Positions 11,650-36,189 of a stretch of DNA of 54,699 bases are shown here, in pieces. The stretch comes from a virus: the IMG/VR virus record IMGVR_UViG_3300006931_000504, positions 1 to 54,699 of that record; one strand, given 5' to 3'. How positions within the stretch are numbered: position 1 is the stretch's first letter; the number at the start of each line of letters is the position of its first letter. Position numbers and translations under genes: made by a program. The notes beneath the pieces are model-generated. The model was not told the origin of the DNA. It worked only from the letters and a program-made list of their open reading frames with translations, and did not search any database.

Positions 11650-11779
11650 CCCCCTGTTCGTCCAGAAGGCGGATCTCCCGCCGTAGTCGACGGACCATGT
11701 CGTCGAGCTGGTCCGCCAGCGCGTTCAGCCGGTGGCGGGCATGTTCGGCGTCGGTGGCCAGCCGGCCCGGGTCATCCAT
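11588..11779 (-). CDS. Small coiled-coil protein
   Basis: A 63-residue protein. Residues ~8-45 form a charged heptad-like helix (RHRLNALADQLDDMVRRLRREIRLLDEQ) followed by a Gly-rich, flexible end. ATG 11779 overlaps the upstream stop. It has no membrane segment. Function unknown; it may partner the neighbouring membrane proteins. Confidence 0.6.
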   Translation of the reverse strand: MDDPGRLATDAEHARHRLNALADQLDDMVRRLRREIRLLDEQGGGGGERADERRSGGDSDAGG

Positions 11780-12083
11780 CGCGCCTGGCCCGGCTCAGCG
11801 CGTCCGTCGCGTCCGCGACGGCGCGCGCCGCCTCGGCGAGTGCACCGGCGTACCGGTCCAGAACCGTCCTGTTGAGGTCGCCGAGCTGCGTTTCGAGCCG
11901 GTCGGCCCGCTGGGTCTCACGCAGGTAGGCGGTGCGGGCGAACACGAGCAGCACGGCGGCAAGGCTGCCCGTGACACCGGTCTGCACGAGGGTGTCCAGG
12001 CCGAGCCCGCGGCTGCCCTCCGCGGCGTCGACCAGCAGCGGCGAACCGACGAGCGCGCCGCCGAGGGCGTACAGGACCACCAT
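11772..12083 (-). CDS. Small membrane protein, holin-like
   Basis: A 103-residue protein with a hydrophobic N-terminus (residues ~1-20), a second hydrophobic span (~32-50) and a long charged helix after it (RETQRADRLETQL and onward). Two spans plus a cytoplasmic coiled coil occur in phage membrane proteins found near lysis cassettes. It could be the holin or an antiholin, but the lysis pair at 8067-9121 is 2.6 kb further along the same strand. Confidence 0.65.
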   Translation of the reverse strand: MVVLYALGGALVGSPLLVDAAEGSRGLGLDTLVQTGVTGSLAAVLLVFARTAYLRETQRADRLETQLGDLNRTVLDRYAGALAEAARAVADATDALSRARRDG

Positions 12084-12086
12084 GGG

Positions 12087-12167
12087 CTATGCCGCTACCC
12101 GGCCAGCAGCAGCCAGTCCCGCAGTGCCCCCGCCGGTCTGGTTCGCCATCGGCGCATGTCCCCTCAT
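12087..12167 (-). CDS. Possible tiny peptide
   Basis: A 26-codon frame from ATG 12167 (or 20 codons from ATG 12149), Gly/Ala-rich and nearly filling the gap between its neighbours. The only support is its fit between overlapping genes; it could be non-coding. Confidence 0.25.
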   Translation of the reverse strand: MRGHAPMANQTGGGTAGLAAAGRVAA

Positions 12168-12168
12168 G

Positions 12169-12249
12169 TCAAGTAGTGACGATGTCGACCTCGCGCCAGA
12201 GCAAGAAGTTCGGGTCGGTGGCCGGTGGCCGCGGTTGCGGGTCGGTCAC
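12169..12249 (-). CDS. Tiny protein after tail gene
   Basis: A 26-residue frame from GTG 12249, which overlaps the stop of the tail gene by 4 bases. It is Pro-rich then ends FLLWREVDIVTT. The GTGA junction is the same as throughout the operon and is the main support. Confidence 0.4.
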   Translation of the reverse strand: MTDPQPRPPATDPNFLLWREVDIVTT

Positions 12250-12764
12250 GCCCGCACCCAGAGCACGGAGACCTTTGGGTCGAAACCGCTCAGCCCGGTG
12301 TCGATCGGGCCGCCCGCGCTCGTCAGCGTCGCGAGGATCTCGATGTAGTCCCCCGCGGCGAGGTGGACGATGTTGCCCATCGGCAGACCCTCCGGGCTGG
12401 CGCCGAGCGCCGAGCGGCGGACCGAGCCGTCCAGGCTGGACCCGTTGATCCGGATGTCGACGCGGCGGGAACCGGACGCGTTCGAGCCGAACTCGACCAC
12501 CGGCAGCACGACATAGTTGCCGGGGTACACCGCCGTGATCCGGGTCGGACTGCCCGAGTCCCACATGCCCAGGTCGTCGGCAAGGGCGGAGTTCCAGACC
12601 AGCGCCGTCGTCGTGTTGTCCGGCAGCGACTGGACGACGGTGCTCGTGACCTTGCAGTAGGGCGGCGACATTAGGAACGACGCCACGTCGGCCATCTGCT
12701 GCAGCTTGGCACTGGTGACCTTGTCCTTGTAGGCCCAGGTCGGTAGGGACGGGACGGCAGTCAT
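12246..12764 (-). CDS. Minor tail or virion decoration protein
   Basis: A 172-residue protein from ATG 12764, sharing one base with the stop of the large tail protein. After a short helical N-terminus (TSAKLQQMADVASFLM) it looks entirely beta-sandwich, with a glycine-rich turn pattern (GNYVVLPVVEFGSNASGSRRVDIRING). This resembles small distal tail proteins of actinobacterial siphophages. The specific role, perhaps receptor contact, is inferred from its position at the end of the tail block. Confidence 0.65.
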   Translation of the reverse strand: MTAVPSLPTWAYKDKVTSAKLQQMADVASFLMSPPYCKVTSTVVQSLPDNTTTALVWNSALADDLGMWDSGSPTRITAVYPGNYVVLPVVEFGSNASGSRRVDIRINGSSLDGSVRRSALGASPEGLPMGNIVHLAAGDYIEILATLTSAGGPIDTGLSGFDPKVSVLWVRA

Positions 12765-15331
12765 CAGTACCCCGCAATGCAACGATCATCGTCAGCGATC
12801 CCGTACCGGTCGTCGTCACACACCCCGATCTCGTCGATGACCGCCGGCTCCAGCTGCGCGGTCACCGTCCACGTCCCGGCCTCACCCCCCGTGAAGGCGT
12901 GGGAGACGCGGCCGATCAGCGCGTCGTATTCCGGGCCGTAGTCGCCGTAATCATCGGCATAGACCTCGGAGACGAGGTCGTAGGGCGCGACGTCGGGCAG
13001 CTCGGACAGCACGATCCGGTCGCCGAACCCGAGCGGCAGCAGCAGGTCCCAGAGGTCGGGGATGCCCTGCGGCAGCCAGCTGACGGAGTCGTTACGGGTC
13101 TGCGGCTCGGCGGTGCGGCTCAGCCGCCAGCGGGCATGGGTGATCGACTCGTCATCGTCCGCCGCGCCGAGCGGGATCGTGTCGCCCTTGATCTTGCCGT
13201 AGCGGACGATCGAGTCCCGGTCGCGGACAGTGACGGTGCCGCCGCCGATCTTCTCGACCTCGACCTCGTTCTCGACGCCGCTGTCGTCGATCCACGGCGT
13301 CCAGTCGTCCGGCGTCGGGTCCGTGTCCTCCGTGCCGGTGAACCAGCCGCCGACTTCGACGCGGTTGACGTACCGGTGCCGGCTGCGAGCGAGAACCGCG
13401 CCGCGAGCGTCCATCACCACCGCGCCGCCGCCGAAGCCGGCAATGTCCTGGCACAGGCCGAGCACGTTGGTCTCCGACCAGTCGCGCGCCAGCAGCTGAG
13501 TAAGCCCCGCGTCGATGACCGTGTCCTCGGCCGGCCAGTCGGCGAGCTGCAGCACCGCAGCGATCCGGTCGCCGTCGGCCTCCTCGGCCAGCCCCGTGGC
13601 GCCCAGGTCGTAGCGGTCGGCCAACTCGGCGAGCGAGGGCGCGCCGAAGAACCAGAACGCCAGGTGCGACATGCGTCCCTGCCAGCGGAAGTCCGCCGTG
13701 TTCAGGAACGTGTTGAACGCGGCGCCGAAGAAGCAGAGCGTTGGAGAGCCGTAGGGCCGCGGGTCTGCGGTCAGGGCCAGCGAGCCGACCTGCACGCCGT
13801 CGAGTACCAGGCTGGCCGTGCCCCAGGTGCCGCCGGGCACCCAGCGGATCGCGACGTGGTGCCCCCGTCCGTCGCACACGCTGGCCGCCGTGGTGGCGAC
13901 GGTCTCGCTGCCGCCGGTCGACGCGGTCAGCGTGCCAGTGCTGGTGTGGAGCACTAGCCGGAATCCCGAGATCGGGTTGCCGCCGGCGTACTCGACGCCC
14001 TGCTGCATGACAACCCGGTCCGTGACCGCTGGCGGCGCGGAGCCGAACCAGGCCAAGAACTCGACACACCAACCGCCGAACGCGATAGACGGACCCATGC
14101 CGGGCGCGAACCGGGCATCCAGCACGGCGCCCGCACCGGTCGGCAGTGTCGTGTCCTGGTGGAACGCAAGCGCCGTCGAGCCGCCGTCGGCGTTGCGGCC
14201 GGTCGCCAGCTCGGGCAGCACAGTATCGGCCCCGAACGCCGTGCCCGCGATGCCGAACTTCGACACCAGGAGCCGCGCCGTCGCCGGCGATTCCGCGGTC
14301 GACCATGTCGAGCTGTCGGTGACCACCTCGGTCCCCGACTGCTCCGTCAGCGGGTACAGCGACGTCGGGACAGCGGCCAGCAGTGCCGCGGTGTACGGCG
14401 CGAGGACGGTCGCCGCGGTCAGCCAGCGGAACCCGTCGTCACAGCTGACCGTGACCTCGGCCGCGGATGGGATGCCCGTCGGGACCATCTCCACCCAGCG
14501 GCGGGTGTAGCCCGACCAGATCGGGTGCAGCACGCCCCTCCACTCCGCGAGGATCCACACCCGCCGCCTGGGCGTGATGTTGCCCAGGTAGGGGGCGACG
14601 CCCTGGATCCGGCCGGGCGAGTACCGGCCGTCGAGGTTGGAGAGCCTGATCGTGGCGGACCCGGCGGTCGTCTGGTCGAGCTCGTGGTTCCGGCCGCACA
14701 GGCCGGCCTCCCACGCCAGCACGTCGTCGGAGACGTCGGTGCCCGCATCGTCGACCGCGACCGTGTCGACGTAGTGGACCTCGCCGGCCCCGCAGTCGAG
14801 CACGTCGACGGCGATGTCGAGCCGCTCCGCGGCGATCGGCGCCGTCGCCAGCACTCCGATCCGGGCCCACCGGTCCGTCGACGTGACGACGAGCGCCGAC
14901 GTCGCAGAGGTCAGGAAGATGTCGCTGCCGGACTTCCACAGCAGCACAACTCGGGCCTGGCGCGCGACGGTCTCGGAGCGGACATGGCCCCACATCAGGT
15001 ACGTCCGCCCCGGCTGGATGACCGTGGAGTCACCCAGGCCGTAGATCAGCATCGAGATGTCGCCGGCACCGACGGCGGTCAGCCGCGCCGAGTGATGCCC
15101 GGCGTAGACCCGGCTCGTCGCGTCGTTGAGCTCCAGCGTTGTGTTCGCGCCCTCGGTCCAGTCGCCGAGGTCCTCGAGCGTGCTGTTGGTGCCGGTGCAG
15201 ATCCCGCCGAGGTCCTGGCCGTCGCGGTCAAACGCGATCCGGACATGGGTCTGCGGCAGCCGCGGGACGCCGCCGCCGTACGGCCCGGAGCCATAGGTCC
15301 CAGCGCCGTACTGCCCGGCGAGCAGCGTCAC
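12764..15331 (-). CDS. Large minor tail protein with lectin-like domain
   Basis: An 855-residue structural protein. GTG 15331 overlaps the preceding stop. The first ~20 residues are Gly/Tyr-rich (YGAGTYGSGPYGGG), then comes a beta-sandwich typical of carbohydrate-binding modules. Around residues 215-270 is IRLSNLDGRYSPGR, a strand pattern common in siphophage baseplate or minor tail proteins. Residues ~380-540 look like a LamG/concanavalin-type domain, with GHHVAIRWVPGG and SLVLDGVQVG. The C-terminal part is again beta-rich. It probably forms the tail tip and binds surface polysaccharide. Confidence 0.75.
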   Translation of the reverse strand: MTLLAGQYGAGTYGSGPYGGGVPRLPQTHVRIAFDRDGQDLGGICTGTNSTLEDLGDWTEGANTTLELNDATSRVYAGHHSARLTAVGAGDISMLIYGLGDSTVIQPGRTYLMWGHVRSETVARQARVVLLWKSGSDIFLTSATSALVVTSTDRWARIGVLATAPIAAERLDIAVDVLDCGAGEVHYVDTVAVDDAGTDVSDDVLAWEAGLCGRNHELDQTTAGSATIRLSNLDGRYSPGRIQGVAPYLGNITPRRRVWILAEWRGVLHPIWSGYTRRWVEMVPTGIPSAAEVTVSCDDGFRWLTAATVLAPYTAALLAAVPTSLYPLTEQSGTEVVTDSSTWSTAESPATARLLVSKFGIAGTAFGADTVLPELATGRNADGGSTALAFHQDTTLPTGAGAVLDARFAPGMGPSIAFGGWCVEFLAWFGSAPPAVTDRVVMQQGVEYAGGNPISGFRLVLHTSTGTLTASTGGSETVATTAASVCDGRGHHVAIRWVPGGTWGTASLVLDGVQVGSLALTADPRPYGSPTLCFFGAAFNTFLNTADFRWQGRMSHLAFWFFGAPSLAELADRYDLGATGLAEEADGDRIAAVLQLADWPAEDTVIDAGLTQLLARDWSETNVLGLCQDIAGFGGGAVVMDARGAVLARSRHRYVNRVEVGGWFTGTEDTDPTPDDWTPWIDDSGVENEVEVEKIGGGTVTVRDRDSIVRYGKIKGDTIPLGAADDDESITHARWRLSRTAEPQTRNDSVSWLPQGIPDLWDLLLPLGFGDRIVLSELPDVAPYDLVSEVYADDYGDYGPEYDALIGRVSHAFTGGEAGTWTVTAQLEPAVIDEIGVCDDDRYGIADDDRCIAGY

Positions 15332-23403: not shown

Positions 23404-23982
23404 TTAGAACGCCACCATCGGCACGGCCTCGCCGTCGAGCAGCTCCTTGACCTTGTTCGGCACCGCGAACCAGATCCCGGGCACCGACATGGTGTCGTCG
23501 ACCGACAGCGCCGGCGGGTTCATCCGCGCCGCGCCGCGCTGCGTCTCCCAGAAATGCTCGACGAGCATGCGTGCGGCCAGGCCGATGTTCTCCGGGGCCT
23601 CCGCCCGGCCGACCTGGTAGACCGCGGTCCAAGGGCCGCCGATGATCGCCCCGCCGTCGCTCCGCCGGACGATCCCGGCGAGCGGGCTGTCGACGTACAG
23701 GGCGGCGACGTCGTAGGCGCTGTCATCCCGGATCGACGTCAGCGACGTGACGGACAGGACCGGCCGCGAGGCCAGCATCAGCGAGGTGCAACCGCCGCGC
23801 TGCCGGGCGACCTCGGTCACCTCGCGCGGGAGGACGGCACCGGCGAGACGCTCGACAATGCGGGTCGCCGCGTCGATGAAGAACTGGAGTTCGTCGTCGT
23901 CGACGGTCGTCCGGATGTTGAGCTGCTCCTTGGCGTCGTCGAGGGTGATGAGCGAGCCGCTCGGCCCGGCTGGAATCGGCAC
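23404..23982 (-). CDS. Head-tail connector protein
   Basis: A 192-residue protein from GTG 23982. The N-terminus (SLITLDDAKEQLNI then DDDELQFFIDAATRIVERLAG) is the helical hallmark of the HK97 gp6-like adaptor family that docks on the portal ring; a beta-rich middle and a helix (IGLAARMLVEHFWETQRGA) follow, also typical. It connects the packaged head to neck and tail. Confidence 0.85.
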   Translation of the reverse strand: MPIPAGPSGSLITLDDAKEQLNIRTTVDDDELQFFIDAATRIVERLAGAVLPREVTEVARQRGGCTSLMLASRPVLSVTSLTSIRDDSAYDVAALYVDSPLAGIVRRSDGGAIIGGPWTAVYQVGRAEAPENIGLAARMLVEHFWETQRGAARMNPPALSVDDTMSVPGIWFAVPNKVKELLDGEAVPMVAF

Positions 23983-24280: not shown

Positions 24281-24487
24281 TCAGGTCCCGTCGTCTGTGT
24301 CCAGCGCGCCCAGCGTCAGCCGGATCAGTGCGTTGACCTGCATGGTGATGCGGCGTACCTGCGCCACTACCTGGGCGTTGGTCGGGCTGGCGATCCCGAG
24401 ATAGGTGATGTTGGTAGCGAGGGCCTGGATGCCGCGACCCCTAAGCGTTTCCGCAGTTGCACGCATTGGCGCATCAACGTCGTCCAT
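24281..24487 (-). CDS. Hypothetical small helical protein
   Basis: A 68-residue protein. NITYLGIASPTNAQVVAQV then MQVNALIRLTLGALD is a pattern I associate with small proteins placed beside fibre genes in actinobacterial phages; it looks like a helix pair. ATG 24487 overlaps the fibre stop by one base. Possibly a fibre accessory; not proven. Confidence 0.7.
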   Translation of the reverse strand: MDDVDAPMRATAETLRGRGIQALATNITYLGIASPTNAQVVAQVRRITMQVNALIRLTLGALDTDDGT

Positions 24488-26238
24488 TATGTGACCTTCA
24501 CAAAGGTTCGGGGAGCCGTTCCAATAAAGCCCGCGCTAGATATGGTCGTAAAGTTGGCGGGCAATGCCCCGCTCACTGAGGCCTGGCTGTAGCCAAAAGC
24601 TCCGGACCCAGTCCCGGGGATACTGGTCCCGACCGATGACCCGAGCGCCAGACCGCCGACGGATGTGGTCCGCGCGGTAGGTTGTGTCGTTGGTGCTCCC
24701 TGGACGGCGGCGCCAATCCAGTACAGTCCAGGTGGAATAGCCTGCGAAACAGTTTTCTCCTGCACCGTTGCGCTCGTTCCGTCGATGGTTCCCGCATCCA
24801 GCAGGAGGGCACCCGGGAATCCGGTGCCGTCGTCACTGTATATACCGAGGCGCACCGTTGACCCTGCCTCGCCGACGCCGGTCAGCTCGGCACCTATGCG
24901 CGAGATGGTGATCGAGTTTGGAACCACCCACGGATGCAGTCGGAGCGTGCCGTTCCCCAGGGCGTTGGATGTGCTGGTGGAGAAGGGCGGGCTGGTGTGG
25001 AAGTAATGCCCCGACCTATAGGGGATGAAGAACGGGAGCGTGCCCCATCGAACGCCGCTCGACTGCGAGGAGTCGGCAAAAAGTATCTGGGCATTGCTGC
25101 CGACAGCGAGGCGGGCCAATGTGTTGTCGGCCGTGCCCACGAGCAGGTCGCCCTTGGCATCAATGGTGGAAAGTTGCGTATACCTGGCGTCCGTCGTGGA
25201 CGGGTAGTCGACGACCGCCGCCAGCGACGGCCGGACAACCCGCTGCCAAGCCGTCCCATCGGCGACCAGATCGACAGCCTGATGCTGGCTGGAGATCGTC
25301 GGGTTCGAGCTGCCGTCAACCGTGCCGGTGATGGTGACCGCATTCGCGCTGGCGTCCGTCTTCTTGACCAGAACCTTGCGGCCCGCCGTCGCGGCGGGCA
25401 AGGTGACTGCGAACGCGCCACTCGTGGCGTCACACAGCACCGCATCACCGGAGGCGGCGGTGTAAGCCGTCGTCCGGCTGACCACCGTCCATGGGACGTC
25501 CAGCTCGGTCAGGGTGACCGCACCCGTCCGGCCCGCCACCGACTGCACCGTCGGGTCCGACCATGCCAGGCCGGTGCTCTGCCCCGATGCGGCCGTGAGC
25601 ACCTTGCCGTCGGCGCCCACGGCCAGCCGACCAACCGTGTTGTCGGCAGTGCCGGCGAACAGGTCACCCTTGGCGTCGACCGTGGAGAGCGACACCTTGC
25701 CGGCCAGATCCGAGACCAGGCCGGTCACGTCCGACTCGGGATGGCTGTGCGTCGTCGGCGTGCGCGCGTCCGACAGCCGAGCGTCGTTGCCAGCCGCGGC
25801 CGTCGTGCCCGACGTACCGAGCGCGCGCAGCGCGGGCGTCCCCGCAGGCCCACCCGACGGAATCGCCGCCACTGCGGCGGCAGCGGCATTCGCCGTGGAC
25901 TGCGCCGCGGCGACGTCGGTCTCCAACGTGTCCAGCCGGTCATCGACCCGCGCGGACACCCGCCCCGCCGGCCCGCCGTTGATCGACGTGTAGAGCACGT
26001 CCGGCAGCGTCGTCGGCACCTGAAAATCAGGCAGCATCGAATAGGCATCGACCCGCAGCGGGTGGTCGTCGTCGACAACATCGCCGTTGGCATGAAGCAG
26101 ACCGGCCGCCGGGATCGTCAGTGCCTCATCCTCGAACATCGGGGCCTCGGACCCCGCCGCCGCCGGTCGCAGCACACGGCCCGAGACGTTCCACACGCCC
26201 CGCGACCCGTCCGACGGGAACCAGCGATAGGTCGTCAT
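24487..26238 (-). CDS. Tail fibre or spike located among head genes
   Basis: A 583-residue protein from ATG 26238. The N-terminal ~100 residues (YRWFPSDGSRGVWNVSGRVLR) probably attach to the particle. A helical linker with an SHPESDVTGL segment follows. Two copies of the common fibre motif AKGDLxxGTADNTxxRLAVG occur (about residues 195-220 and 375-400), with a QSVAGRTGAVTL shaft unit between them. The last ~200 residues are a beta-rich head. Its place between capsid and connector genes is odd for a tail fibre and could mean a head fibre. It directly follows the modification genes. Confidence 0.75.
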   Translation of the reverse strand: MTTYRWFPSDGSRGVWNVSGRVLRPAAAGSEAPMFEDEALTIPAAGLLHANGDVVDDDHPLRVDAYSMLPDFQVPTTLPDVLYTSINGGPAGRVSARVDDRLDTLETDVAAAQSTANAAAAAVAAIPSGGPAGTPALRALGTSGTTAAAGNDARLSDARTPTTHSHPESDVTGLVSDLAGKVSLSTVDAKGDLFAGTADNTVGRLAVGADGKVLTAASGQSTGLAWSDPTVQSVAGRTGAVTLTELDVPWTVVSRTTAYTAASGDAVLCDATSGAFAVTLPAATAGRKVLVKKTDASANAVTITGTVDGSSNPTISSQHQAVDLVADGTAWQRVVRPSLAAVVDYPSTTDARYTQLSTIDAKGDLLVGTADNTLARLAVGSNAQILFADSSQSSGVRWGTLPFFIPYRSGHYFHTSPPFSTSTSNALGNGTLRLHPWVVPNSITISRIGAELTGVGEAGSTVRLGIYSDDGTGFPGALLLDAGTIDGTSATVQEKTVSQAIPPGLYWIGAAVQGAPTTQPTARTTSVGGLALGSSVGTSIPGTGSGAFGYSQASVSGALPANFTTISSAGFIGTAPRTFVKVT

Positions 26239-26750
26239 CAGCCCTCCCGCCTCGCCACACAGCGCACGTCCGCCGGGTAGAGCTGCTCGTCCACCACGAT
26301 GTCGACGAAGCCGGCCGCGGCCAGCGCCTGGTCCAGCTCGAAGCGGGAGATCCCGGCGTAGTGCTCCCCCGGGTAGGGAGCGCCGACGGGATCGATGCCC
26401 GAATGCGCCGGCCGACCCGGCGAGGCCGCGGTTGCGATGAACGCACCACCCGGCACGAGCGCCGCGTAGGCCGTGCGGATGATGTCCCGCCAGGACGGGG
26501 TGTGCTCGAAGACCTCGGTGCACAGCACGACGTCGAAGACGTTCGTCGGCTTCCAGGTCGCCGCGTCCGCGACGATGTTGACGTTCTCGCCCGGACGCAC
26601 GTCGAGGACCGCGTAGGCGACCGAGTCCGGGAACAGGTCGCGGCAGGTGCCGTTCACGTCCCGGCCGCCGATGTCCAACACGCTCGGCGGGTGGTCGAAG
26701 GGTAGCGACGCTGCGGCAGCGGCCACCCACTGGAGCGCGGCGTCATGCAC
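26238..26750 (-). CDS. SAM-dependent methyltransferase
   Basis: A 170-residue class I methyltransferase. GTG 26750 lies just before motif I (VLDIGGRDVNG, residues 24-34); an acidic strand end (AVLDVRPGEN), FDVVLCTEVFEH (72-83) and PGGAFIATAAS complete the Rossmann fold. The N-terminus is short for the family. The 58-residue frame just upstream reads as the missing N-terminus in another frame, so the gene may be split by one inserted base near 26770. It is coupled with the oxygenase and glycosyltransferase; a small-molecule, sugar or protein substrate is likelier than DNA bases. Confidence 0.82.
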   Translation of the reverse strand: MHDAALQWVAAAAASLPFDHPPSVLDIGGRDVNGTCRDLFPDSVAYAVLDVRPGENVNIVADAATWKPTNVFDVVLCTEVFEHTPSWRDIIRTAYAALVPGGAFIATAASPGRPAHSGIDPVGAPYPGEHYAGISRFELDQALAAAGFVDIVVDEQLYPADVRCVARREG

Positions 26751-26919
26751 GGCGGCGCCCCCTCCCGCGAAGCGGCAGGCCGCCCGAGTCGTAGCCCGCG
26801 AGGGTGGGGTCGTAGTACCTGTCGACGAAGCTTCGGGGAGGCATCGGGTCGGGTTCTGGGCTAGCTGACGAGGGCGGCGATTCCTCGCCCGGGGCGGCCT
26901 CGCCGGGCGGGTCAGGCAT
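26743..26919 (-). CDS. Small protein, probable lost N-terminus of methyltransferase
   Basis: A 58-residue frame from ATG 26919, overlapping the oxygenase stop by 8 bases and ending inside the methyltransferase start (GTGCATGA). After a Pro/Glu-rich lead it reads SFVDRYYDPTLAGYDSGGLP. In the methyltransferase frame the same DNA continues FAGGGAAVHDAALQWV. Joining the two needs a one-base change near 26770, so this may be half of a frameshifted gene rather than a separate protein. Confidence 0.55.
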   Translation of the reverse strand: MPDPPGEAAPGEESPPSSASPEPDPMPPRSFVDRYYDPTLAGYDSGGLPLRGRGRRRA

Positions 26920-27616
26920 CGCGCGTCCCCGGGTGCCAGACCGTCGACTGCTCTCCCGCGTAGCCGGGCGACGGCTCGTCGGTGAAGAAGTACGCCGCGC
27001 AGCTCTTGCGCCAACGCGCCGCCGGCTTCGGGTGGCCGTGCCACGACGTCGACGACGTCTCGAAAACCACCGTCCGGCCCAGCTCCGGCACCACGTCTAC
27101 CGCCGGGCCGTCCGCGCCCCACAGCTCCAGGTGGCCACCGTCGTCCTGCCAGCCCTCGTTCAGGTAGATCATCAGGTTCAGTCGGCGATGCCGGCCCGTC
27201 TGCGGCGAACGGGAGAAGTCGGTGTGCACGCCGAGATACCCGCCGGGCGGGATCAGGTGGTAGCCGCCGCCGACCGTCTCGACCTGGAGACCCCAGATTC
27301 CGAACAGCTCGCTCAGCTGCTGCCTATAGGCGCCGATGTCGAGGAACAACTCGCGGGTGCACGGGCCCCAGAGTCCGGGCGGGCCCTCCAGCTTGACCTC
27401 GTTCTCCGAGCCGTAGCGCTTCCAGCCGGGCGCCGAGGGGTCCGGGAACTCTGCGGCGACTGCGCGTAGGAGGTCCAGATTCCACCAGCCGTCGACGACG
27501 AGATAGGGGAACGGCTTGCGGTCACCCATCGCGGGCGTGCCTTGCGCGCTCATCGTGATGGCGGCGTCGGCGAGATCGGACAGCGGTTCACCGCAGTCGG
27601 GCGGGCAGGCGGTCAC
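26912..27616 (-). CDS. 2-oxoglutarate/Fe(II) oxygenase (prolyl-hydroxylase-like)
   Basis: A 234-residue predicted hydroxylase. GTG 27616 overlaps the glycosyltransferase stop. The iron triad is visible: H131 and D133 in VHTDFS and a distal His in SWHGHP (H193 or H195), with Arg at 201/203 to hold 2-oxoglutarate. The stretch RRLNLMIYLNEGW then GGHLELW is a hallmark of the P4H-type family. It would use 2-oxoglutarate and oxygen to add a hydroxyl group, perhaps the site the neighbouring glycosyltransferase then decorates. Confidence 0.85.
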   Translation of the reverse strand: MTACPPDCGEPLSDLADAAITMSAQGTPAMGDRKPFPYLVVDGWWNLDLLRAVAAEFPDPSAPGWKRYGSENEVKLEGPPGLWGPCTRELFLDIGAYRQQLSELFGIWGLQVETVGGGYHLIPPGGYLGVHTDFSRSPQTGRHRRLNLMIYLNEGWQDDGGHLELWGADGPAVDVVPELGRTVVFETSSTSWHGHPKPAARWRKSCAAYFFTDEPSPGYAGEQSTVWHPGTRDA

Positions 27617-29052
27617 AGGTTCACCTTCGCGCGCGCCTCGAACAGCGCCCTGTCGCTCTCCGCCGCCGACATTCCCAGCTCGTACACCTCGTCCGCCGCC
27701 GCCTTGCCGGCGGCCGGGTGCAGGTGCTCGACCTTCGACAGCGGGCAAGGCGACCAGACCCCGCGCGCCTTGGCCGCAATGACGATCTCGTCGTCCACGA
27801 ACCAGTGCCGGTAGCCCTCGTGGGCCACGACGCCGGGACCGTCCCAGCTCGCGCCCATCTCGTCGACGTAGGAGCGGCGGATCAGCATGTGCGTCGCGTG
27901 CTCGCCGGCGACGACCCGCGGGTTCAGCATGTCGTCCGTGCCGATTACGTGGGTCTCGCTGTCGGCCGCAGCCTGGGCGTGGTCCAGCCAGCCCGGCCAG
28001 AACCGCACGTCATCACCGACGACGAACAGCCAGGGCTCGCTCGTCTCGCGGTAGCCGAGATTCACCTTCTCCGCGAACGTCCCGACGCCGAACGGGCCCG
28101 GCTTCGCGTGCAGCACCGTGGCGCCCGCAGCCTCCCAGGCGTCGATCGTCTCCTGGTCATCCTCGTCCGCGACCGCATACACCGCCGCCAGCCCCGTCGT
28201 CGCCCGCAACGACGCCATGAACGGCGCCGCGTTCGCCGGCCGGCGCAGCACCGGCACGATGACCGCAGTCGGCGCCGTGGCCGGCGGGGGCACCAGCGTG
28301 CCGAGGTAGTCCAGCTCGCCGATCCACGTCGACTTGTGGTGCGTCGTCTGCACGCCTGTATGCACATAGACCGGGATCCCTAGCTGTCCGAGCCGCATGC
28401 AGAACGACAGATCCTCGCTGGTCAGCTCGTTCATCGACTTGTTGAAGATCCGGTCGTACCAGGTTGCTCCGTACTTCTCGTGCACTCGCTCAAACACCGA
28501 CCGGTGAATGAGGATGCAAGCCGAACCGGTCCCGTGGACCCGCGTCACGACGTCCCGCGAGTAGCTGAAGCGGACGGCGAAACCCTCCTGCTCGCCGATG
28601 TGGCGCCAGTCGAAGATGGTCGGCGCCGGTGCGCACCGGAACCCGCCGAGACCGTCCGGCGACACCTGGCGCTGCGAATAGCAGAGTCCACCGACTACTG
28701 GCCGCTCCACCGGGTCTGCGGCGTTCATGAGCAGATCCACCGTGTACGGCGGAAAGCCCATGTCGGTATCGATCCAGAACAGCCAGTCCGCCTCGGTCTC
28801 CAGGAACTGAGCGACCGCCTTGTTGCGGGCCGCGACCAGGCCGTCGGTACCACACAGCATCGCGATCTCCGCGTTCCCGCGCATGATCCGCTGCCGGTTT
28901 CCCAGGTCCCAGCCGATCATCTCGTGGTGCGAACGATGCCAGCTGTAGGAGACGGTCTCGCCGTCGTAGACGTAGGCGATGGCCACCGTGTCGCCAGCTG
29001 GCGGCGGCTCCGGTGGTGGCTCGGCCGCCGAGGCGACCATAGGTTCAGACAC
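27613..29052 (-). CDS. Two-domain glycosyltransferase
   Basis: A 479-residue enzyme with two probable GT-A domains. Domain 1 (about 22-250) has WLFWIDTDMGF (D95-x-D97, metal and nucleotide-sugar site), SEDLSFCMR (212-220, likely base) and a final His-rich strand. Domain 2 (about 262-479) has TAVIVPVLRRPANAAPF, FVVGDDVRFWPGW (346-348) and a VDDEI-type acidic motif. GTG 29052 follows GGAGG by 4 bases. Lying between the capsid and fibre genes, it probably decorates virion proteins. Domain 2 could be specific for a second sugar. Confidence 0.85.
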   Translation of the reverse strand: MSEPMVASAAEPPPEPPPAGDTVAIAYVYDGETVSYSWHRSHHEMIGWDLGNRQRIMRGNAEIAMLCGTDGLVAARNKAVAQFLETEADWLFWIDTDMGFPPYTVDLLMNAADPVERPVVGGLCYSQRQVSPDGLGGFRCAPAPTIFDWRHIGEQEGFAVRFSYSRDVVTRVHGTGSACILIHRSVFERVHEKYGATWYDRIFNKSMNELTSEDLSFCMRLGQLGIPVYVHTGVQTTHHKSTWIGELDYLGTLVPPPATAPTAVIVPVLRRPANAAPFMASLRATTGLAAVYAVADEDDQETIDAWEAAGATVLHAKPGPFGVGTFAEKVNLGYRETSEPWLFVVGDDVRFWPGWLDHAQAAADSETHVIGTDDMLNPRVVAGEHATHMLIRRSYVDEMGASWDGPGVVAHEGYRHWFVDDEIVIAAKARGVWSPCPLSKVEHLHPAAGKAAADEVYELGMSAAESDRALFEARAKVNL

Positions 29053-29146: not shown

Positions 29147-29404
29147 TCAGGACCGGGCCGCGCGCGCGGTCTGGCGCCGCGTGCCAGGCGGGGCGTCCGC
29201 CGTCTCGACGGCCGGGTCGTCCAGCCCAGGGGGCTGCGCCGTGAACCGCAGCCCGTAGCGCGGATCGCGGCTGAACAGGTCCGGGTGGTCGAGCACGAGC
29301 GGGTCGTCGTCCGGGTAGTGGTCGCCGACGCGCAGACGGGCCTGGGCGCCGCCAGGCAGCGTCACCACCGTCGTCGCCGTCGCGAACACGGGAGTGATCG
29401 CCAT
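29147..29404 (-). CDS. Hypothetical protein downstream of capsid
   Basis: An 85-residue protein. The first half is beta-like (TPVFATATTVVTLPGGAQARLRVGD) and continues HYPDDDPLVLDHPDLFS; the end is basic. The opening and the PLVLxHPDLF stretch are of the type seen in small proteins after the capsid gene in actinophages, possibly head decoration or neck proteins. That role is inferred from position. Confidence 0.7.
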   Translation of the reverse strand: MAITPVFATATTVVTLPGGAQARLRVGDHYPDDDPLVLDHPDLFSRDPRYGLRFTAQPPGLDDPAVETADAPPGTRRQTARAARS

Positions 29405-29709: not shown

Positions 29710-31260
29710 TCAGGAGTTGACGAGAAGGCGGAAGGCCAAGTCGTTGGTCGACGCCGAGCCGATCCGCGCGTGCGCGAACCAGCCCCGCTGACCGGTCGGG
29801 AAGCCGACCCCCGTGCCGGCGGTCTGCTGCTGGAAGAGGTTCGGGATCAGCTCGACCTCCATGCCGCCGCGGCGTGCCAGCACGAAGTTCTGGAAGTCGC
29901 CGACGACCGCGAGCCCCGTCGGCGCGGTGGTGCTCGCCGTGGTGTCCGGCATATACGGCGACTCGTAGACCGGCTTCCGGAAGAACGACTCCGCCCACTC
30001 CTCGGTGATGTTCACCGACTGCGAGTGGAACTGGTCCGTGCCGAGCTGACGGAATGCGTTGTTCACGCCGACGCTCATCAGCCACTTCGCGTTGCGGCGG
30101 AACCGCTGCGGCACGGCCTTCCAGACCTTGTACGGGTCGGGCTGGCCGATCGTGCCGACCGTGGTCACCGTGACGCGCACGTTGGTGTTCGCGGAGAGCA
30201 CAGTCAAGATTCCGTAGGGCTCACCCGAACCCGAACCGCGGGTGTACTTGTCGACCTGCAGCTCGTCCCAGCCGTCCGCCAGCAGCCGTGCCATTTCGTC
30301 CGCGAACGCCGGGTAGTCATCCGCGACCTCGATCGTGTACGGAATGAATCCCTTCGCCATGTGAATCGTGACCGACGGCTGAGTCAGGGTCGGACTGTTG
30401 TCCGTCGCCACGGACGCCTCAGTCCCGAACGCCCAGGTGACACCCGCGCTGGCGACACCCTTCCAGATGTTCGACGGCGTGGTCACCTGCCGACAGATCT
30501 GCAGGAACGGGTTGTCGCTGCCCTGACCGGTCTCGATGATGCTCGGGTCGATGAACACCGGGATGCCGTAGCCACCCGAGCCCGCGACGTTTTCGCTCAG
30601 GGCCCGGTACTCGTGCCAGGCGCGCACGGCGTTCCGCTCGTCGTCGTCGAGCGTTGCCGCGGCGTGCGGGTCGGTGATCAGCTTCATCCACGCCGAGCGG
30701 TACGCCTCGTTCTCGGTCACGATGATCCGCGCGCCGATCGTGAAGTCGCGCCGAACCGCCTTGTTGACCGCCGAGCGCTGCTCGTCGGTCATGTGAGCCG
30801 TGTCGTGCCGGTTCTCCAGGATTCGCAGCGCCCGGTCCCGGAGCTCGCCGCGGCTCGCCGTGCGCAGCGAGGAGGTCTCCTCGCCGAACATCCGCGTCCG
30901 CGTCGCCTCGTAGTGCGCCGGCCGGGTGTCCAGCAGCCGCTTCAGGCTGGCGTGCTTGTCGAGCCGCTTCCTCGCCGCGTCCCGCAGCTCGACCAGCCGG
31001 TTGAAGACGACGTCCTCGTCCTCGGACAGGTCGCGCAGCGCGCCGGTCTCGTCCTGCGACAACGACACCAGGTGCGCGTCGATGTCGCGCATCCGCTGCT
31101 CGAGGACCTCGGGCCGCAGCCCCACCAGGTCGTTGTCGGTCCAGGCGAGCACGTCGCCGCGAGTCTCGTCCTCGGAGCCGCCCATCACGGGCCAGACCGG
31201 GCCGCGGCGGCCCCATCCCAGCGCGCGGAGCCCCGTGGTCGGGTGGATCGGGAGATTCAT
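29710..31260 (-). CDS. Major capsid protein (HK97 fold)
   Basis: A 516-residue protein. Residues ~45-150 are a charged helical delta domain acting as built-in scaffold, removed by the protease. The mature part has the usual HK97 order: an E-loop region, NPFLQICRQVTT, the long spine helix (ADEMARLLADGWDELQVDKYTRGSGSGEPYGIL) and the ending LAFRLLVNS. ATG 31260 overlaps the protease stop. It is longer than many capsid proteins because of the fused delta domain; no separate scaffold gene is seen. Confidence 0.93.
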   Translation of the reverse strand: MNLPIHPTTGLRALGWGRRGPVWPVMGGSEDETRGDVLAWTDNDLVGLRPEVLEQRMRDIDAHLVSLSQDETGALRDLSEDEDVVFNRLVELRDAARKRLDKHASLKRLLDTRPAHYEATRTRMFGEETSSLRTASRGELRDRALRILENRHDTAHMTDEQRSAVNKAVRRDFTIGARIIVTENEAYRSAWMKLITDPHAAATLDDDERNAVRAWHEYRALSENVAGSGGYGIPVFIDPSIIETGQGSDNPFLQICRQVTTPSNIWKGVASAGVTWAFGTEASVATDNSPTLTQPSVTIHMAKGFIPYTIEVADDYPAFADEMARLLADGWDELQVDKYTRGSGSGEPYGILTVLSANTNVRVTVTTVGTIGQPDPYKVWKAVPQRFRRNAKWLMSVGVNNAFRQLGTDQFHSQSVNITEEWAESFFRKPVYESPYMPDTTASTTAPTGLAVVGDFQNFVLARRGGMEVELIPNLFQQQTAGTGVGFPTGQRGWFAHARIGSASTNDLAFRLLVNS

Positions 31261-32069
31261 GACCGAATCCCTCTCAGTTGCAGGAGACGCCCGCGCGCAG
31301 CGCGGGCCTTCGCGGCCTCGTCCGCCTGGCCGTCCTCGTGTCCGCGCTCCGCGCTCCGCGCAACAGAGGCCCCGGACAGGTCGGGCAGGTGGCTGAGTGC
31401 CGAACGGATGTAGACCTCGGTGTCCCGATAGGCCGGGAAGACGACCGGGCCAAGCTCAGAGACGTCCGCGTCGCGGATCTCGCGAACCTGCATGCCGCCG
31501 GCGCGCGTCGACCATGAGTCGCCGCCGTCGGGCACCGAGAAGCGGAACGACATGCCGGTGATCGCGCCGTCGCGGATGGCTGCACGCACGGGCTCGGTCA
31601 GCCAGCTGTCCGTGAGACGCGTCTCCGTGTACAGACCGCGACTGTCCTCCTCGGCCCGCTGCAGGACGCCAAGCGGTATCGAGCCGACCAGGGGGTGCTT
31701 GCCGTGGTCGAACATGACCACCGGCCGCCGCTCACCCAGGCTTCGCGTGAAGGTCCCGCGCCGCACGATCTCCTCGAACTCGCCGAGCGAGTCGCGGATC
31801 GTCGTGGCCCTGTCGAAGACGGCCGCGTAGCCGGCCAGAGTCCGTCCGTCCGTCGACGCCTCGATCTCGAACGGGACGTCGCGGAGGGCCTCGCCGTAGC
31901 GGCTAGCCGCGTTCGCGCCGTCCTTCCGGCGCCGAGCCGCGGCCGCCATCGCGTCGAACTGGCCACGGCCGTACTTCTTCTTGCCGATCCAGGCCGCGAG
32001 CGCGTCCGGGTCGTGCGCGCCCTTCGCCGCCAGCTGCGCCGACAGCGCCCTGAAACCGATGTGCGCCAT
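31257..32069 (-). CDS. HK97-type prohead protease (S78)
   Basis: A 270-residue serine protease that trims the prohead. The catalytic His lies in MFDHGKHPLVG (H122 or H125) and the Ser in TGMSFRF (S174), preceded by LAGYAAVFD. An N-terminal ~60-residue helical extension (WIGKKKYGRGQFDAMAAAARR) is fused on, and a charged C-terminal tail follows. ATG 32069 shares a base with the previous stop. It lies between portal and capsid in the standard order. Confidence 0.93.
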   Translation of the reverse strand: MAHIGFRALSAQLAAKGAHDPDALAAWIGKKKYGRGQFDAMAAAARRRKDGANAASRYGEALRDVPFEIEASTDGRTLAGYAAVFDRATTIRDSLGEFEEIVRRGTFTRSLGERRPVVMFDHGKHPLVGSIPLGVLQRAEEDSRGLYTETRLTDSWLTEPVRAAIRDGAITGMSFRFSVPDGGDSWSTRAGGMQVREIRDADVSELGPVVFPAYRDTEVYIRSALSHLPDLSGASVARSAERGHEDGQADEAAKARAARGRLLQLRGIRS

Positions 32070-33046
32070 CAGCCCTCCGCTCCAGTCTCGGCCTCGGCCG
32101 CCTCGAGGTCGGCGACCGACAGGCCGGCCAGGTCGGGCAGGTCCTCGTAGTCGTCCCAGTCGTCGGGCAGCGCCAGCGTGCTCGGGTACGTCTCGGGTGC
32201 GTCGGCGTTCTCTCCGGCGTCGCGGCGCCCCTTCTTCTTGCCTTTCTTGCCGGTGTTCGCCGACCCGGGCCACGTCCCCAGCACCGCGTGGTGCCGCTCG
32301 GCGCAGTAGCCCCACGCCTCCTCGTCGCCCATCCCCGCGTGCTCCATCACCAGCCGGTGGCAGCGGGTCGTCGCCCCGGGCGAGCCCCAGCGGATCTGCA
32401 GCGCGCCCTTGCCGTGCTCCCAGTAGTCCCTGCCGTACTCGGCGATCCGCGGGTTCCCGGCGCGGCCGGTGTCGGAGGCGACCGGGTTGCGCGCCGGCAC
32501 CTTCGACGCCGCGGTCTTCGCGGGCGCAGTCTTGGTCGAGGTCGACTTCGCCGGCGCGTGGGTAGCCGTCTTCGCTGGTGGCCTCGTGGCGGTCGACGCC
32601 TTGGGCTTGGGTGGCGTGGCCCCCTTGGCTGCCGCCGGCTTCGCCGTGGCCTTAGCTGGCGCCGCACCGGCGGCCCTGCCGGGTTCCTTGCCGGCCGCGA
32701 TGTCGCGCAGCTTCTGCCGATCGGCGTCGGTGAGCTTTCCAGGCGCGCGCTTGCCCTCGCCGAGCAGCGAGGCGATCGTCTGGGCGCCGACCTTGCCGTC
32801 GACCTGGAGGCCGTGCTCCCGCTGGTACTTCTTCACGGCCTCGGCGTCGGCCGGCGAGAACCTCCCGGTCGGCTCCAGGCCGAGGAGCTTCTGGACGGCC
32901 TTGACCTCGGCGGTCTTCTCATCCGTCGCGCCCTCGCCGCCAGCCTCGCCCTTGCCCGCGTCGGCCGACACGAACTGGCCACCCGTCGGGCTGCCGGTGG
33001 GCCCGCGCGGGTGCAGGGCTTCGTCGAACGCGCGGCAGTAAGTCAC
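32069..33046 (-). CDS. Portal-linked protein with peptidoglycan-binding domain
   Basis: A 325-residue protein from GTG 33046, overlapping the portal stop. The start FDEALHPRGPTGSPTGGQFV resembles processing or attachment tags seen in actinophage head operons. Residues ~45-90 are a PG_binding_1 domain (VKAVQKLLGLEPTGRFSPAD, then VDGKVGAQTIASLLG). An Ala/Lys/Pro-rich linker (~115-185) follows, then a conserved-looking segment with RCHRLVMEHAGM and GYCAERHH, and an acidic end. The order is unusual; it could be an internal head protein or a wall-binding virion protein. Confidence 0.75.
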   Translation of the reverse strand: MTYCRAFDEALHPRGPTGSPTGGQFVSADAGKGEAGGEGATDEKTAEVKAVQKLLGLEPTGRFSPADAEAVKKYQREHGLQVDGKVGAQTIASLLGEGKRAPGKLTDADRQKLRDIAAGKEPGRAAGAAPAKATAKPAAAKGATPPKPKASTATRPPAKTATHAPAKSTSTKTAPAKTAASKVPARNPVASDTGRAGNPRIAEYGRDYWEHGKGALQIRWGSPGATTRCHRLVMEHAGMGDEEAWGYCAERHHAVLGTWPGSANTGKKGKKKGRRDAGENADAPETYPSTLALPDDWDDYEDLPDLAGLSVADLEAAEAETGAEG

Positions 33047-34440
33047 GCGGCAGGCCCTCCCGTCGGTGGGGCCGCCGCGGCCGGCTCCTGGCCCTGGCCC
33101 GGCGGGAGCAACTGGACGGACACGAGACCCGAGTGCTTCAAGAGCGACATGTCCTTCGCCTGCACCGCAGCCACCACCGACCCCGGCTCGAAGCCGCCGT
33201 CGACGAGCTGGCGGATGGTCGCCGCCTTCGCCTGCTCGATCTCTGCCGCGTCCTTCTCGTCCTCGCGCAGCAGCGGGATGTCGCCGACGTCGAACCACAA
33301 CTCGGCGTCCCGCGGCACATCCACGAGCGGACCGAGGGCTGCGGACAGGTCCTGCAGCGTCGGATAGACCCACGTGTCCGCGAACAGGCGCCGAGCCTGG
33401 CTGAAGTTGCCCGCGTTCAGACTGGAGCCGCTCAGGCCCTCGGCGATGCCAAGCACCGGCGCCGGCACTCGCGACAGGAAACTGATCCGCGTCTCGCTGG
33501 CGCCCTGCACCGTCTTCGTGTCCAGTTGCGACAGGTCGCTGCCGACGACGGTCGCGTCCGCGCCCGCGGTCAGGTACAGCGTCCGGAACGCGTTCGCCAC
33601 GCCGGTGTGGCGCTCCTCGAGCGCGTCGACGGCCGCCATGAACGCCTCGACCGACGTCGCCGGCAGGCCCTTGACCACAAGGTTCGGCGTCGCCCCGTTC
33701 TCCAGGTACCGGACCTTGAAGTCGGTCATCGACCGGTCGAGCTGCATGTCCCGGATCGCCGGCGTCAGCCACGACATCCCCATGCCGGGCGACTCTGGGT
33801 CGGGAATCGGCGACCACCACGCCACCTCGTCCGGCAGCAGGACCTGCGGCGTGCCCGTCCCAGCACCGCCGACCCAGTAGGCGAACCCGAGCAGCTCGCC
33901 GTCGAGCTCCAGGCCGGGGCACCTCGAGTCGGGCACCGAGTCCGATCCCCAGATCACGCCCACCCAGTCCGGGCGCAGCACCCGCAGCCGGCCCGACTGA
34001 CGGGCCACGTAGGCATTGCCCGCGAGGCCGGCGTGCCATTCCATTCGCGAGATCAGCTCGCCCGTCGTCGCGCCCGTCCACGGCTCCTCGAGCGGCGCCA
34101 GTGCCGTCGTCCCGAACGTCCGCCGGCCCTGCGGAGACCAGCGCTTCGACCGGAACACGAACCGCGCCTGCGACAGGACCAGCGCCCGGACCATCTCCGC
34201 GGCGAACGCCGGCGGGCAGCGCTGCAGCGCCGCCATGTAGCCCGGCAGGGAGCTGGCGACCTCCATCGCCCGCGCGCCCGCGTACGTCGTCGTCAGGCCC
34301 GGGATGCCGCCGTATTGGTAGCGCGTGCCGCCGTAGTTGAAGCTACCCGGAATCAGGTAGTCGCTGATCCAGCTGTCGATGCTCGAGCGGGCCTCGCCGT
34401 CGCCACGGCGCCGCGCCGCGGCGCGTTCGAGGATCCCCAC
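33043..34440 (-). CDS. Portal protein (HK97 family)
   Basis: A 465-residue protein forming the ring for DNA entry and exit. It has typical features: AGARAMEVASSLPGYMAALQRCPPAFAAEMVRALVLSQARF near the start, GNAYVARQ, VRYLENGATPNLVVKGLP with the SVEAFMAAVDALEERHTG helix, and FSQARRLFADTWVYPTLQDLS. GTG 34440 begins just after a small membrane-protein gene. Order and length match HK97-type portals. Confidence 0.92.
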   Translation of the reverse strand: MGILERAAARRRGDGEARSSIDSWISDYLIPGSFNYGGTRYQYGGIPGLTTTYAGARAMEVASSLPGYMAALQRCPPAFAAEMVRALVLSQARFVFRSKRWSPQGRRTFGTTALAPLEEPWTGATTGELISRMEWHAGLAGNAYVARQSGRLRVLRPDWVGVIWGSDSVPDSRCPGLELDGELLGFAYWVGGAGTGTPQVLLPDEVAWWSPIPDPESPGMGMSWLTPAIRDMQLDRSMTDFKVRYLENGATPNLVVKGLPATSVEAFMAAVDALEERHTGVANAFRTLYLTAGADATVVGSDLSQLDTKTVQGASETRISFLSRVPAPVLGIAEGLSGSSLNAGNFSQARRLFADTWVYPTLQDLSAALGPLVDVPRDAELWFDVGDIPLLREDEKDAAEIEQAKAATIRQLVDGGFEPGSVVAAVQAKDMSLLKHSGLVSVQLLPPGQGQEPAAAAPPTGGPAA

Positions 34441-34441
34441 C

Positions 34442-34654
34442 TCAGCCGGCCCGCGGCTGACGCGCCTCGTGCCAGCCCAGCGCGACCAGCGAGGCCGACC
34501 AGCGCGCCGCGGCGACCGTCAGGACGACGGTGCGACCTGGAACCCAGCCCAGGCCGTAGAGGACACCGGCGACCAGGGCCAGCAGCCAACGGCCGATCCG
34601 TCGGGCGGCGGGCTCGGCGAGCGAGAGGTCGACGACGACCACGGTCACCTCCAC
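34442..34654 (-). CDS. Small membrane protein between terminase and portal
   Basis: A 70-residue protein with one or two hydrophobic spans (about 24-42 and 42-58) and charged ends. GTG 34654 lies inside the end of the terminase gene. A membrane protein here is not part of the usual packaging order. It could act in superinfection exclusion or be a small accessory; function unknown. Confidence 0.6.
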   Translation of the reverse strand: MEVTVVVVDLSLAEPAARRIGRWLLALVAGVLYGLGWVPGRTVVLTVAAARWSASLVALGWHEARQPRAG

Positions 34655-36189
34655 GCGCCGAAGAACTGTTCAGGCTCCGGCTGGATGGCCGCGGCACGCG
34701 AATCGCCGATGATCGCGCAGATGGCGAGGTCGATCTTTCGCTTGGAGTTCTTCGACTCCTTGCGCACCCGCGGCCCCGCCGGCGTGCTGTCCACGACCGC
34801 GTTCCTGACGTGCCGGGCCAGCCGAGGGTCGCCACTGTGCGTGAACGTGTTCCCGGTCGCCGACTCGTAGAACGACTGAGCCGCCAGGTTCATGACCTTG
34901 CCCTGCGGTACCTCGACCACCGGGAAGCCCTGGGCTTCGAGGCGTTCCAGCATGCCGCGGTACAGCCACATGTCCGCGGCGAGCTCCCGGACGCGGAAGG
35001 TACGGAACAGCTCCCGCAGCGACTCCTCGACGGCCTCTTCGGGTACGTGCCAGTCCAGGCGGGCGTCGACGGGCTTCTCCCAGGCCGCCCAGACGTCCAT
35101 GTGTCGCGTTCCGAGCTCATGCACCGTGATCCCGGTCGAGTCGCCCGAGTACGACCCGTCGAACGCGGCCACGACATCCGCGCCAGCCGGCACGGTGCAT
35201 GGATCGTCCGGCGACAAGCGGACGCGTTCGGCGTGCCGGCAGCTGTCCCAGACGCCCGGCGACAGGAACGCCTGCGCACCGGAGACCCACTGGTTGAGGT
35301 GGTAGCGGCGGAACTCGTGCGGCTCGATCTGCCGGGCCCGCTTCACCAGGTTCTCGGCCGGCCAGAACACGTCCGCGCCCGGGTTGCAGGCCAGGACCGC
35401 GGCACGCACCGCTTCCGGGTCTTTGAAGTCGACTTCCTCGGGCCCCTCGTACCAGACGAACAGGAACTCCGGGTCGACGATCTCGCCCGAGGCGACCTTG
35501 CAGCCGTAGTCGTACATCTGCGCGAGTAGCGAGTCCGGGTCGGTGCCAGCCGTCGAGATGTTCAGTTCCAGGCCGTCGGGCCGCTTCTGGAGCGAGTTCG
35601 ATACCACCAGGTGGACGCGGGCCTTTCGGCCGTCCCATTCGTGCAGCTCATCGCCCACGAATGTCGTCGGTCGGCCGCCGTCGTTCGTCCCAGCAACCGC
35701 AGCGATCTTCTTCATCAGCCCGGGGCGGTCACGCAGGGTGATGCGGTCCTCGAAGACGTCAAGGTGGTCCTTCAGCGGCCCGTCGCGCACCATCGCCGCG
35801 GCCGTCCCGAACAGCAGGTCGGCCTGCTCGTACGACGCCGCGGCGACGGGGATGTCGGGGGCGGTGACCGCGAGCGGCCCGGCCAGTTCGGCGAGTGCCA
35901 CCGCCGCCATCAGCTCCGTCTTCGCGTTGCCCTTCGGCAGGCCGAACAGGGCCCGGCGGAAGCGGCGGCGCTCCGTCGCCTGGTCGTACTCGTACAGCCG
36001 GTACAGGAACGACCGCTGGAACTGCTGGAGGCGAAAGGGCTGGCCGTAGACCGGCCCGGGCCCGTGGATCAGGAACGCCTGCATCCACTTGCAGATCAGT
36101 GGGCCGTGCGTCGGCGGCAGCGGGTCAGGAAGAGGCGAGGCGAGGATCGATGACCCGCGGGTCGGCGTCGCCGTCGTCACTGGCGTCAC
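34645..36189 (-). CDS. Terminase large subunit
   Basis: A 514-residue packaging motor and nuclease. The ATPase domain has FGLPKGNAKTE (Walker A, 82-92) and TFVGDELHEW (Walker B, 177-186). The RNase-H-like nuclease starts near D345 (VAAFDGSYSGDSTG) with later acidic residues (ELAADMWLY; KIDLAICAI). ATG 36189 overlaps the small-subunit gene by 65 bases, a rather long overlap, but no better start is seen. Confidence 0.93.
   Translation of the reverse strand: MTPVTTATPTRGSSILASPLPDPLPPTHGPLICKWMQAFLIHGPGPVYGQPFRLQQFQRSFLYRLYEYDQATERRRFRRALFGLPKGNAKTELMAAVALAELAGPLAVTAPDIPVAAASYEQADLLFGTAAAMVRDGPLKDHLDVFEDRITLRDRPGLMKKIAAVAGTNDGGRPTTFVGDELHEWDGRKARVHLVVSNSLQKRPDGLELNISTAGTDPDSLLAQMYDYGCKVASGEIVDPEFLFVWYEGPEEVDFKDPEAVRAAVLACNPGADVFWPAENLVKRARQIEPHEFRRYHLNQWVSGAQAFLSPGVWDSCRHAERVRLSPDDPCTVPAGADVVAAFDGSYSGDSTGITVHELGTRHMDVWAAWEKPVDARLDWHVPEEAVEESLRELFRTFRVRELAADMWLYRGMLERLEAQGFPVVEVPQGKVMNLAAQSFYESATGNTFTHSGDPRLARHVRNAVVDSTPAGPRVRKESKNSKRKIDLAICAIIGDSRAAAIQPEPEQFFGAWR

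Follow-up and report, generated by a model that had tools for sequence, protein, structure and literature searches.

The head operon and its borders

What do a glycosyltransferase (GT), an oxygenase and a methyltransferase modify when a phage encodes them next to its capsid protein? The question is raised by the uncultivated virus IMGVR_UViG_3300006931_000504, whose entire record (54,699 bases, 71% GC) is called the window here. The first-pass annotation described four coupled genes within the structural operon, encoding a double GT, a P4H-like oxygenase, a methyltransferase and a fibre, and suggested that a residue of a virion protein is hydroxylated, the new hydroxyl glycosylated and the sugar capped with a methyl group. 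The four genes are indeed present on the minus strand, with Pfam and PHROG matches that agree with the families named, and they lie inside the structural operon as claimed, between the capsid and the head-tail connector.

The order of genes on the minus strand is terminase (34645-36189), portal (33043-34440), protease (31257-32078), major capsid protein (29710-31260), two small genes, the cassette and the head-tail connector. All the features given below are on the same strand. The capsid protein has 516 aa and belongs to the HK97 fold family (Pfam Phage_capsid, E = 1.7e-25). It is a possible glycan acceptor, as is an 85-aa protein encoded in the interval between capsid and GT (29147-29404), which is conserved in 71 of 80 GT-containing loci by tblastn. 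The connector (23404-23982; Pfam HCP, E = 3.1e-7; PHROG head-tail adaptor, E = 1.2e-23) forms the downstream border of the cassette.

Megablast found no close relatives of the window among named phages, and a capsid search of 84,980 bacterial and archaeal genomes gave no confirmed prophage host. The labels 'soil' and 'actinobacterial' rest on the high GC content and on the nearest cultured capsids, those of Mycobacterium and Gordonia phages, rather than on a host record. BLASTP revealed no similarity between the 85-aa protein and gp7 of Kita or Sbash, nor between the connector and Kita gp8. The window also encodes a DNA adenine methylase.

The enzymes of the cassette

The GT gene (27613-29052) begins with a GTG codon preceded by GGAGG, and encodes a two-domain GT-A-like protein of 479 aa, assigned by Pfam, PHROG and fold matches. 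In Pfam, residues 70-125 align with PF00535 (E = 6.5e-5) at 23.4 bits against a cut-off of 23.3. Both halves match PHROG glycosyltransferase families, different for each half, with E = 1.8e-15 and 2.5e-8. An acidic metal-binding motif, DTD at residue 95, is invariant in 14 sequences, and there is a GDD at residue 346. The predicted structure is weak overall (pLDDT 78, pTM 0.51). Its best fold matches are GT-A structures. From the fold and the acidic motif the protein is therefore classed as a GT-A, GT2-type enzyme, with the arrangement of the domains in the model uncertain.

The GT gene overlaps that of the oxygenase (26912-27616) by 4 nt. The latter encodes a 2-oxoglutarate (2OG)-Fe(II) oxygenase of the prolyl-hydroxylase branch, with 234 aa (Pfam 2OG-FeII_Oxy_3, E = 4e-16). 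The iron-binding HxD...H triad of H131, D133 and H193 and the 2OG-binding arginine R203 do not vary across 22 aligned sequences. The AlphaFold model (pLDDT 85.6) has a double-stranded beta-helix fold like that of prolyl hydroxylases, and with its catalytic residues intact this looks like a competent enzyme. The best Foldseek match is the Pseudomonas putida prolyl hydroxylase 4iw3, which binds EF-Tu (E = 2.9e-11). Taking sequence profile and fold together, the nearest relatives of solved structure are the P. putida P4H with EF-Tu, OGFOD1, Tpa1 and PHD2. PasI and PolD are also among the top fold matches. Both are linked to sugar-nucleoside substrates, PasI by the title given to the structure of its complex. 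The label P4H-like is thus correct for the family, whereas the substrate could be of either class, as the fold neighbors include enzymes acting on proteins and on sugar nucleosides.

The methyltransferase gene (26238-26750) encodes a SAM-dependent enzyme of 170 aa (Methyltransf_23, E = 4.4e-13). The Methyltransf_23/11 domain scores 49.7 bits against a cut-off of 27, placing the protein in class I of the SAM methyltransferases. An ORF from 26919 runs into this gene, and we considered whether the methyltransferase could be frameshifted. However, the homologues begin at the same MHxxA residue, corresponding to the GTG at 26750. The 58-aa ORF upstream of it scores negatively for codon use and lacks homologues among the other loci compared. 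The gene is therefore intact, and the 161 nt between oxygenase and methyltransferase (26751-26911), where the codon score is negative, are apparently non-coding.

The description of four coupled genes thus requires some qualification. The GT and oxygenase genes overlap, and those of the methyltransferase and the fibre share one base within TGATG, but the oxygenase and methyltransferase are separated. The fibre gene starts at 26238, so that the ORF listed as 24487-26730 exceeds the gene. Its product, a fibre-like protein of 583 aa (24487-26238; PHROG tail and fibre matches), is followed by a small protein of 68 aa (24281-24487), an ORF whose codon use marks it as a gene. Partial relatives of the fibre occur in viral contigs, and none is full-length. 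In a related locus, L159, a connector-like gene comes immediately after the methyltransferase. We conclude that the fibre is a neighbor of the cassette and not a member of a conserved set, contrary to what had been proposed. None of the proteins encoded here shows a probable membrane-spanning segment, and the acceptor should therefore be cytoplasmic.

A conserved GT followed by a variable set of genes

Scanning IMG/VR with the window capsid protein gave 67 uncultivated relatives. All are metagenomic contigs, many of them short, and their genes were called with a simple codon-based caller written for this analysis. The N-terminal domain of the GT lies 0.5-2.4 kb behind the capsid in every one of the 44 relatives that extend at least 2.6 kb beyond the capsid. 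Sbash and Kita, two cultured phages whose capsids come nearest to that of the window (31-33% identity), lack the cassette: the connector genes follow the capsid directly, with no GT there.

The interval between GT and connector varies. It may contain the second domain of the GT, the small methyltransferase seen in the window, other methyltransferases in pairs and other GTs, and then head or fibre proteins. An NDP-sugar epimerase/dehydratase is present in this interval in 24 loci, and 16 loci have a three-domain C-methyltransferase of the Methyltransf_13/23/14 type. The interval looks like a surface-sugar locus set into a phage head operon. Because relatives hold an epimerase/dehydratase, a C-methyltransferase and further GTs and methyltransferases in this place, we read it as a slot for sugar synthesis. 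A testable rule follows for this broad group of uncultivated phages, in which the GT always stands behind the capsid and the genes beyond it vary like those of a surface-sugar locus. Should the particles bear such sugars, glycosylated virions would be the norm in a large group of phages.

The same database was scanned with the GT, giving at least 450 relatives. The best 80 loci were analyzed, chosen by similarity to the two-domain GT, and the proportions apply to that sample. The capsid is present in 79 of these, the methyltransferase in 54 and the oxygenase in 10. According to the first-pass annotation the proposal would fall if the three genes never co-occurred elsewhere. The order GT-oxygenase-methyltransferase in fact recurs in four lineages besides the window, namely L138, L159-L162 (a single virus), L163 and L194. 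The contig of L194 ends in the methyltransferase, while those of L129, L164 and L187 already stop inside the oxygenase. The oxygenase and methyltransferase genes overlap by 8 nt in L138, L159 and L163, in place of the separation found in the window.

Yet 59 of the 66 GT-bearing loci with at least 1.5 kb of downstream sequence (the window included) lack the oxygenase. The GT therefore does not generally need a hydroxylated acceptor, which goes against the idea that hydroxylation creates the acceptor for glycosylation. A dependence of the GT on hydroxylation is accordingly not general in the family, although it could hold where both enzymes occur. On the GT tree the presence of the oxygenase requires at least five changes, and lineages with the oxygenase are nested among those with the methyltransferase only (L138 beside L193 and L196, L159 and L164 beside L133). 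The oxygenase is thus an optional step, gained or lost repeatedly, and it lies between GT and methyltransferase wherever both flanks are visible. Close relatives with and without it provide natural pairs for finding the substrate. Comparison of the capsid and 85-aa sequences revealed no proline confined to phages with the oxygenase, and no residue change in either protein that clearly tracks it.

The oxygenase outside this group of phages

Related oxygenases also occur away from head genes. In the Zukovirus phages of Streptomyces, Zuko and KimJongPhill, an oxygenase, a GT, a methyltransferase and a second GT form one operon that is removed from the structural genes. In L005 the second GT domain (61%) adjoins the oxygenase (64%) near a primase-like gene, and the rest of the set is not nearby. 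The window capsid was not found in the records of L005, L076 or KimJongPhill. Because neither Zukovirus nor L005 has its oxygenase within the head operon, location is not proof of a virion target.

The bacterial relatives of the oxygenase sit near genes for sugars and surface polysaccharides. In 52 such loci, 11 of the 56 immediate neighbors are GT2 enzymes, compared with at most about 1 of the 46 listed genes at least 4.5 kb away (Fisher p about 0.01, in a small test).

Comparison with known systems

The closest published parallel is provided by Corndog and other cluster O mycobacteriophages, in which gp35-gp38 similarly place an O-methyltransferase and GTs in the head operon of an actinobacteriophage. 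They are proposed to modify the capsid, and all four Corndog enzymes were detected in infected cells (PMC4351075). The Corndog genes are located between portal and protease and include no oxygenase, whereas those of the window are behind the capsid. Neither the GT nor the methyltransferase of the window matched mycobacteriophage records at E = 1e-5. Glycans on the major capsid protein and phage-encoded GTs are reported for Che8, as cited in PMC11256854. In contrast to the window, the F1 phage of that paper has its GT genes close to the 3' genome end, and no oxygenase is mentioned for it there.

Two parallels come from outside the phages. A064R of PBCV-1 is a GT-GT-methyltransferase that builds and caps the chlorovirus capsid glycan (PMC9614988). 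Like the window it is virus-encoded and combines two GT domains with a methyltransferase, but it is a single fused protein of a eukaryotic virus, the core of the N-glycan is made by other enzymes, and the unit has no hydroxylase. In mimivirus L230, lysyl hydroxylase and GT are coupled (PMC9614988), so that a virus-encoded hydroxylase is paired with a GT as in the window. It differs in being of the lysyl/collagen type, fused, from a giant virus and without a methyltransferase.

Similar gene sets are present in unrelated phages. In that of Zukovirus the oxygenase (36-39% identity) and the methyltransferase (37-44%) are homologous to those of the window and share an operon with GTs, but this operon is near tRNA genes outside the structural genes, the GTs are arranged differently and the oxygenase is annotated as a hypothetical protein. 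Pontimonas phage phiPsal1 has the order capsid-GT-methyltransferase-GT-neck. Its glycan genes thus occupy the corresponding slot, and its methyltransferase is related to that of the window (32%). There the methyltransferase is on the opposite strand, the glycosyltransferase is of group I and there is no oxygenase. Within open-licence papers, a limited literature search for a phage set of hydroxylase and GT returned nothing on point. The suggestion that the cassette may define a new pathway therefore stands in reduced form. Precedents exist in Corndog for GT with methyltransferase, in A064R for GT-GT-methyltransferase and in L230 for hydroxylase with GT. What is new is the addition of the oxygenase to a known GT-methyltransferase theme in a capsid-side phage cassette, and the hydroxylase step is unusual in comparison with known sugar-coated phages.

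A probable role in virion glycosylation

We think it probable, from genes and their arrangement, that this is a phage-encoded cassette for glycosylating virions in the cytoplasm. The reading is based on the position beside the capsid, the strict conservation, the absence of membrane segments, the varying sugar-making enzymes and the published precedent. The GT would be made beside the capsid protein during late expression, and would use nucleotide-sugar donors to add one or two sugars in the cytoplasm. Its acceptor would be a head protein, with the capsid protein and the conserved 85-aa protein as the likeliest candidates. The methyltransferase might then O-methylate the terminal sugar, and the oxygenase could supply an optional extra hydroxylation on the sugar or on the protein acceptor. 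The comparison establishes which genes are present, that their place and order are conserved, that the oxygenase has its catalytic residues intact, and that both oxygenase and methyltransferase are optional. We infer that the virion is the target, in what order the reactions run, that the sugar is O-methylated, and any part played in shielding, adsorption or stability.

Within virion glycosylation the oxygenase could act in two ways. It is possible, if somewhat short of probable, that it hydroxylates a sugar, either as the free nucleotide sugar or in a bound glycan, generating a rare monosaccharide around which the GT and methyltransferase act. This is consistent with the C-methyltransferase and epimerase that occupy the slot in related phages, with the enrichment of GT2 beside the bacterial relatives and with PasI and PolD as fold neighbors, although gene neighborhood is indirect evidence and the nearest solved structures are protein hydroxylases. 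Those structures argue instead for a peptidyl, prolyl-type hydroxylase, with the GT glycosylating the new hydroxyl and the methyl cap following, as do the order GT-oxygenase-methyltransferase with its overlapping genes in relatives and the coupling of the two activities in L230. Given the many GT loci that lack the oxygenase, indicating that the GT family can use an acceptor that is not hydroxylated, and the failure to find a capsid or 85-aa proline particular to oxygenase-bearing phages, we regard this as rather unlikely. The neighboring genes fit sugar hydroxylation better, and the nearest solved structures fit protein hydroxylation better. Hydroxylation followed by glycosylation is exemplified by Skp1 in Dictyostelium. 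In the full chain a head protein would be hydroxylated at a proline or at some other residue, the two-domain GT would assemble sugars on the new hydroxyl and the methyltransferase would cap them. This is possible but is not our preferred reading, and we consider it doubtful. Were it true, three genes would provide a cytoplasmic, hydroxylation-dependent glycosylation on the particle of a bacterial virus, comparable with the modification of Skp1 or collagen in eukaryotes.

The target might not be the virion at all. Many phage GTs remodel the surface glycans of the host, and these enzymes could do so in receptor masking or superinfection exclusion, in keeping with the surface-polysaccharide genes near the bacterial oxygenases. 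That is quite unlikely given the location in the head operon and the conserved capsid neighbor, and a cassette that has no membrane segments, flippase or lipid-linked GT partner. Hydroxylation plus glycosylation is also the known logic of DNA hypermodification, where a base is hydroxylated and then receives a sugar, as in T-even or TET-type phages. The pairing of these activities and the DNA adenine methylase in the window would accord with such a role here. However, by Pfam and fold the oxygenase belongs to the prolyl-hydroxylase branch and not to TET/JBP, relatives have the GT with no oxygenase of any kind, a sugar C-methyltransferase and an epimerase would be out of place for DNA, and the genes lie in the head operon, so that modification of phage DNA is most improbable.

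Gene content between capsid and connector

Across the IMG/VR contigs related to the window through the capsid or the two-domain glycosyltransferase (L007-L073 and L129-L207), the block of capsid, 85-aa protein and glycosyltransferase is constant, and the interval behind it, up to the head-tail connector, is hypervariable. The genes swapped in there encode an NDP-sugar epimerase, a C-methyltransferase, paired methyltransferases, several glycosyltransferases and fibres. The capsid to connector interval of these contigs looks like a hypervariable glycan locus. In the capsid relative L047, a gene after the glycan cassette and before the connector (11603-14860) encodes a 1085-aa minor-tail-like protein containing an apiosidase/cellulase-like domain.

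The 85-aa protein (window 29147-29404) adjoins the capsid in most relatives, and has a conserved PGE(K/R)R-like motif at its C-terminal end. It is possibly a decoration protein or a glycan acceptor. The capsid gene itself is called in two parts (~225 and ~273 aa) in relatives L066, L068-L070 and L072, with ~1 kb separating the two matches in L069 and L072. The split may reflect intervening sequence, such as an intron, or an error of assembly.

The Zukovirus homologues of the 2OG-Fe(II) oxygenase, gp110/gp109 (L001:3990-4634 and L002:3823-4470), are annotated as hypothetical proteins.

Other genes of the window

An FtsK/SpoIIIE-type translocase (3746-5953) lies close to the left end of the window, and a phage-integrase-family recombinase (52614-53918) close to the right. 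The phage may be temperate, with conjugative-element-like genes. The window also encodes a D12-class DNA adenine methylase (45785-46603) and a RecT and YqaJ recombination pair (49080-51061).
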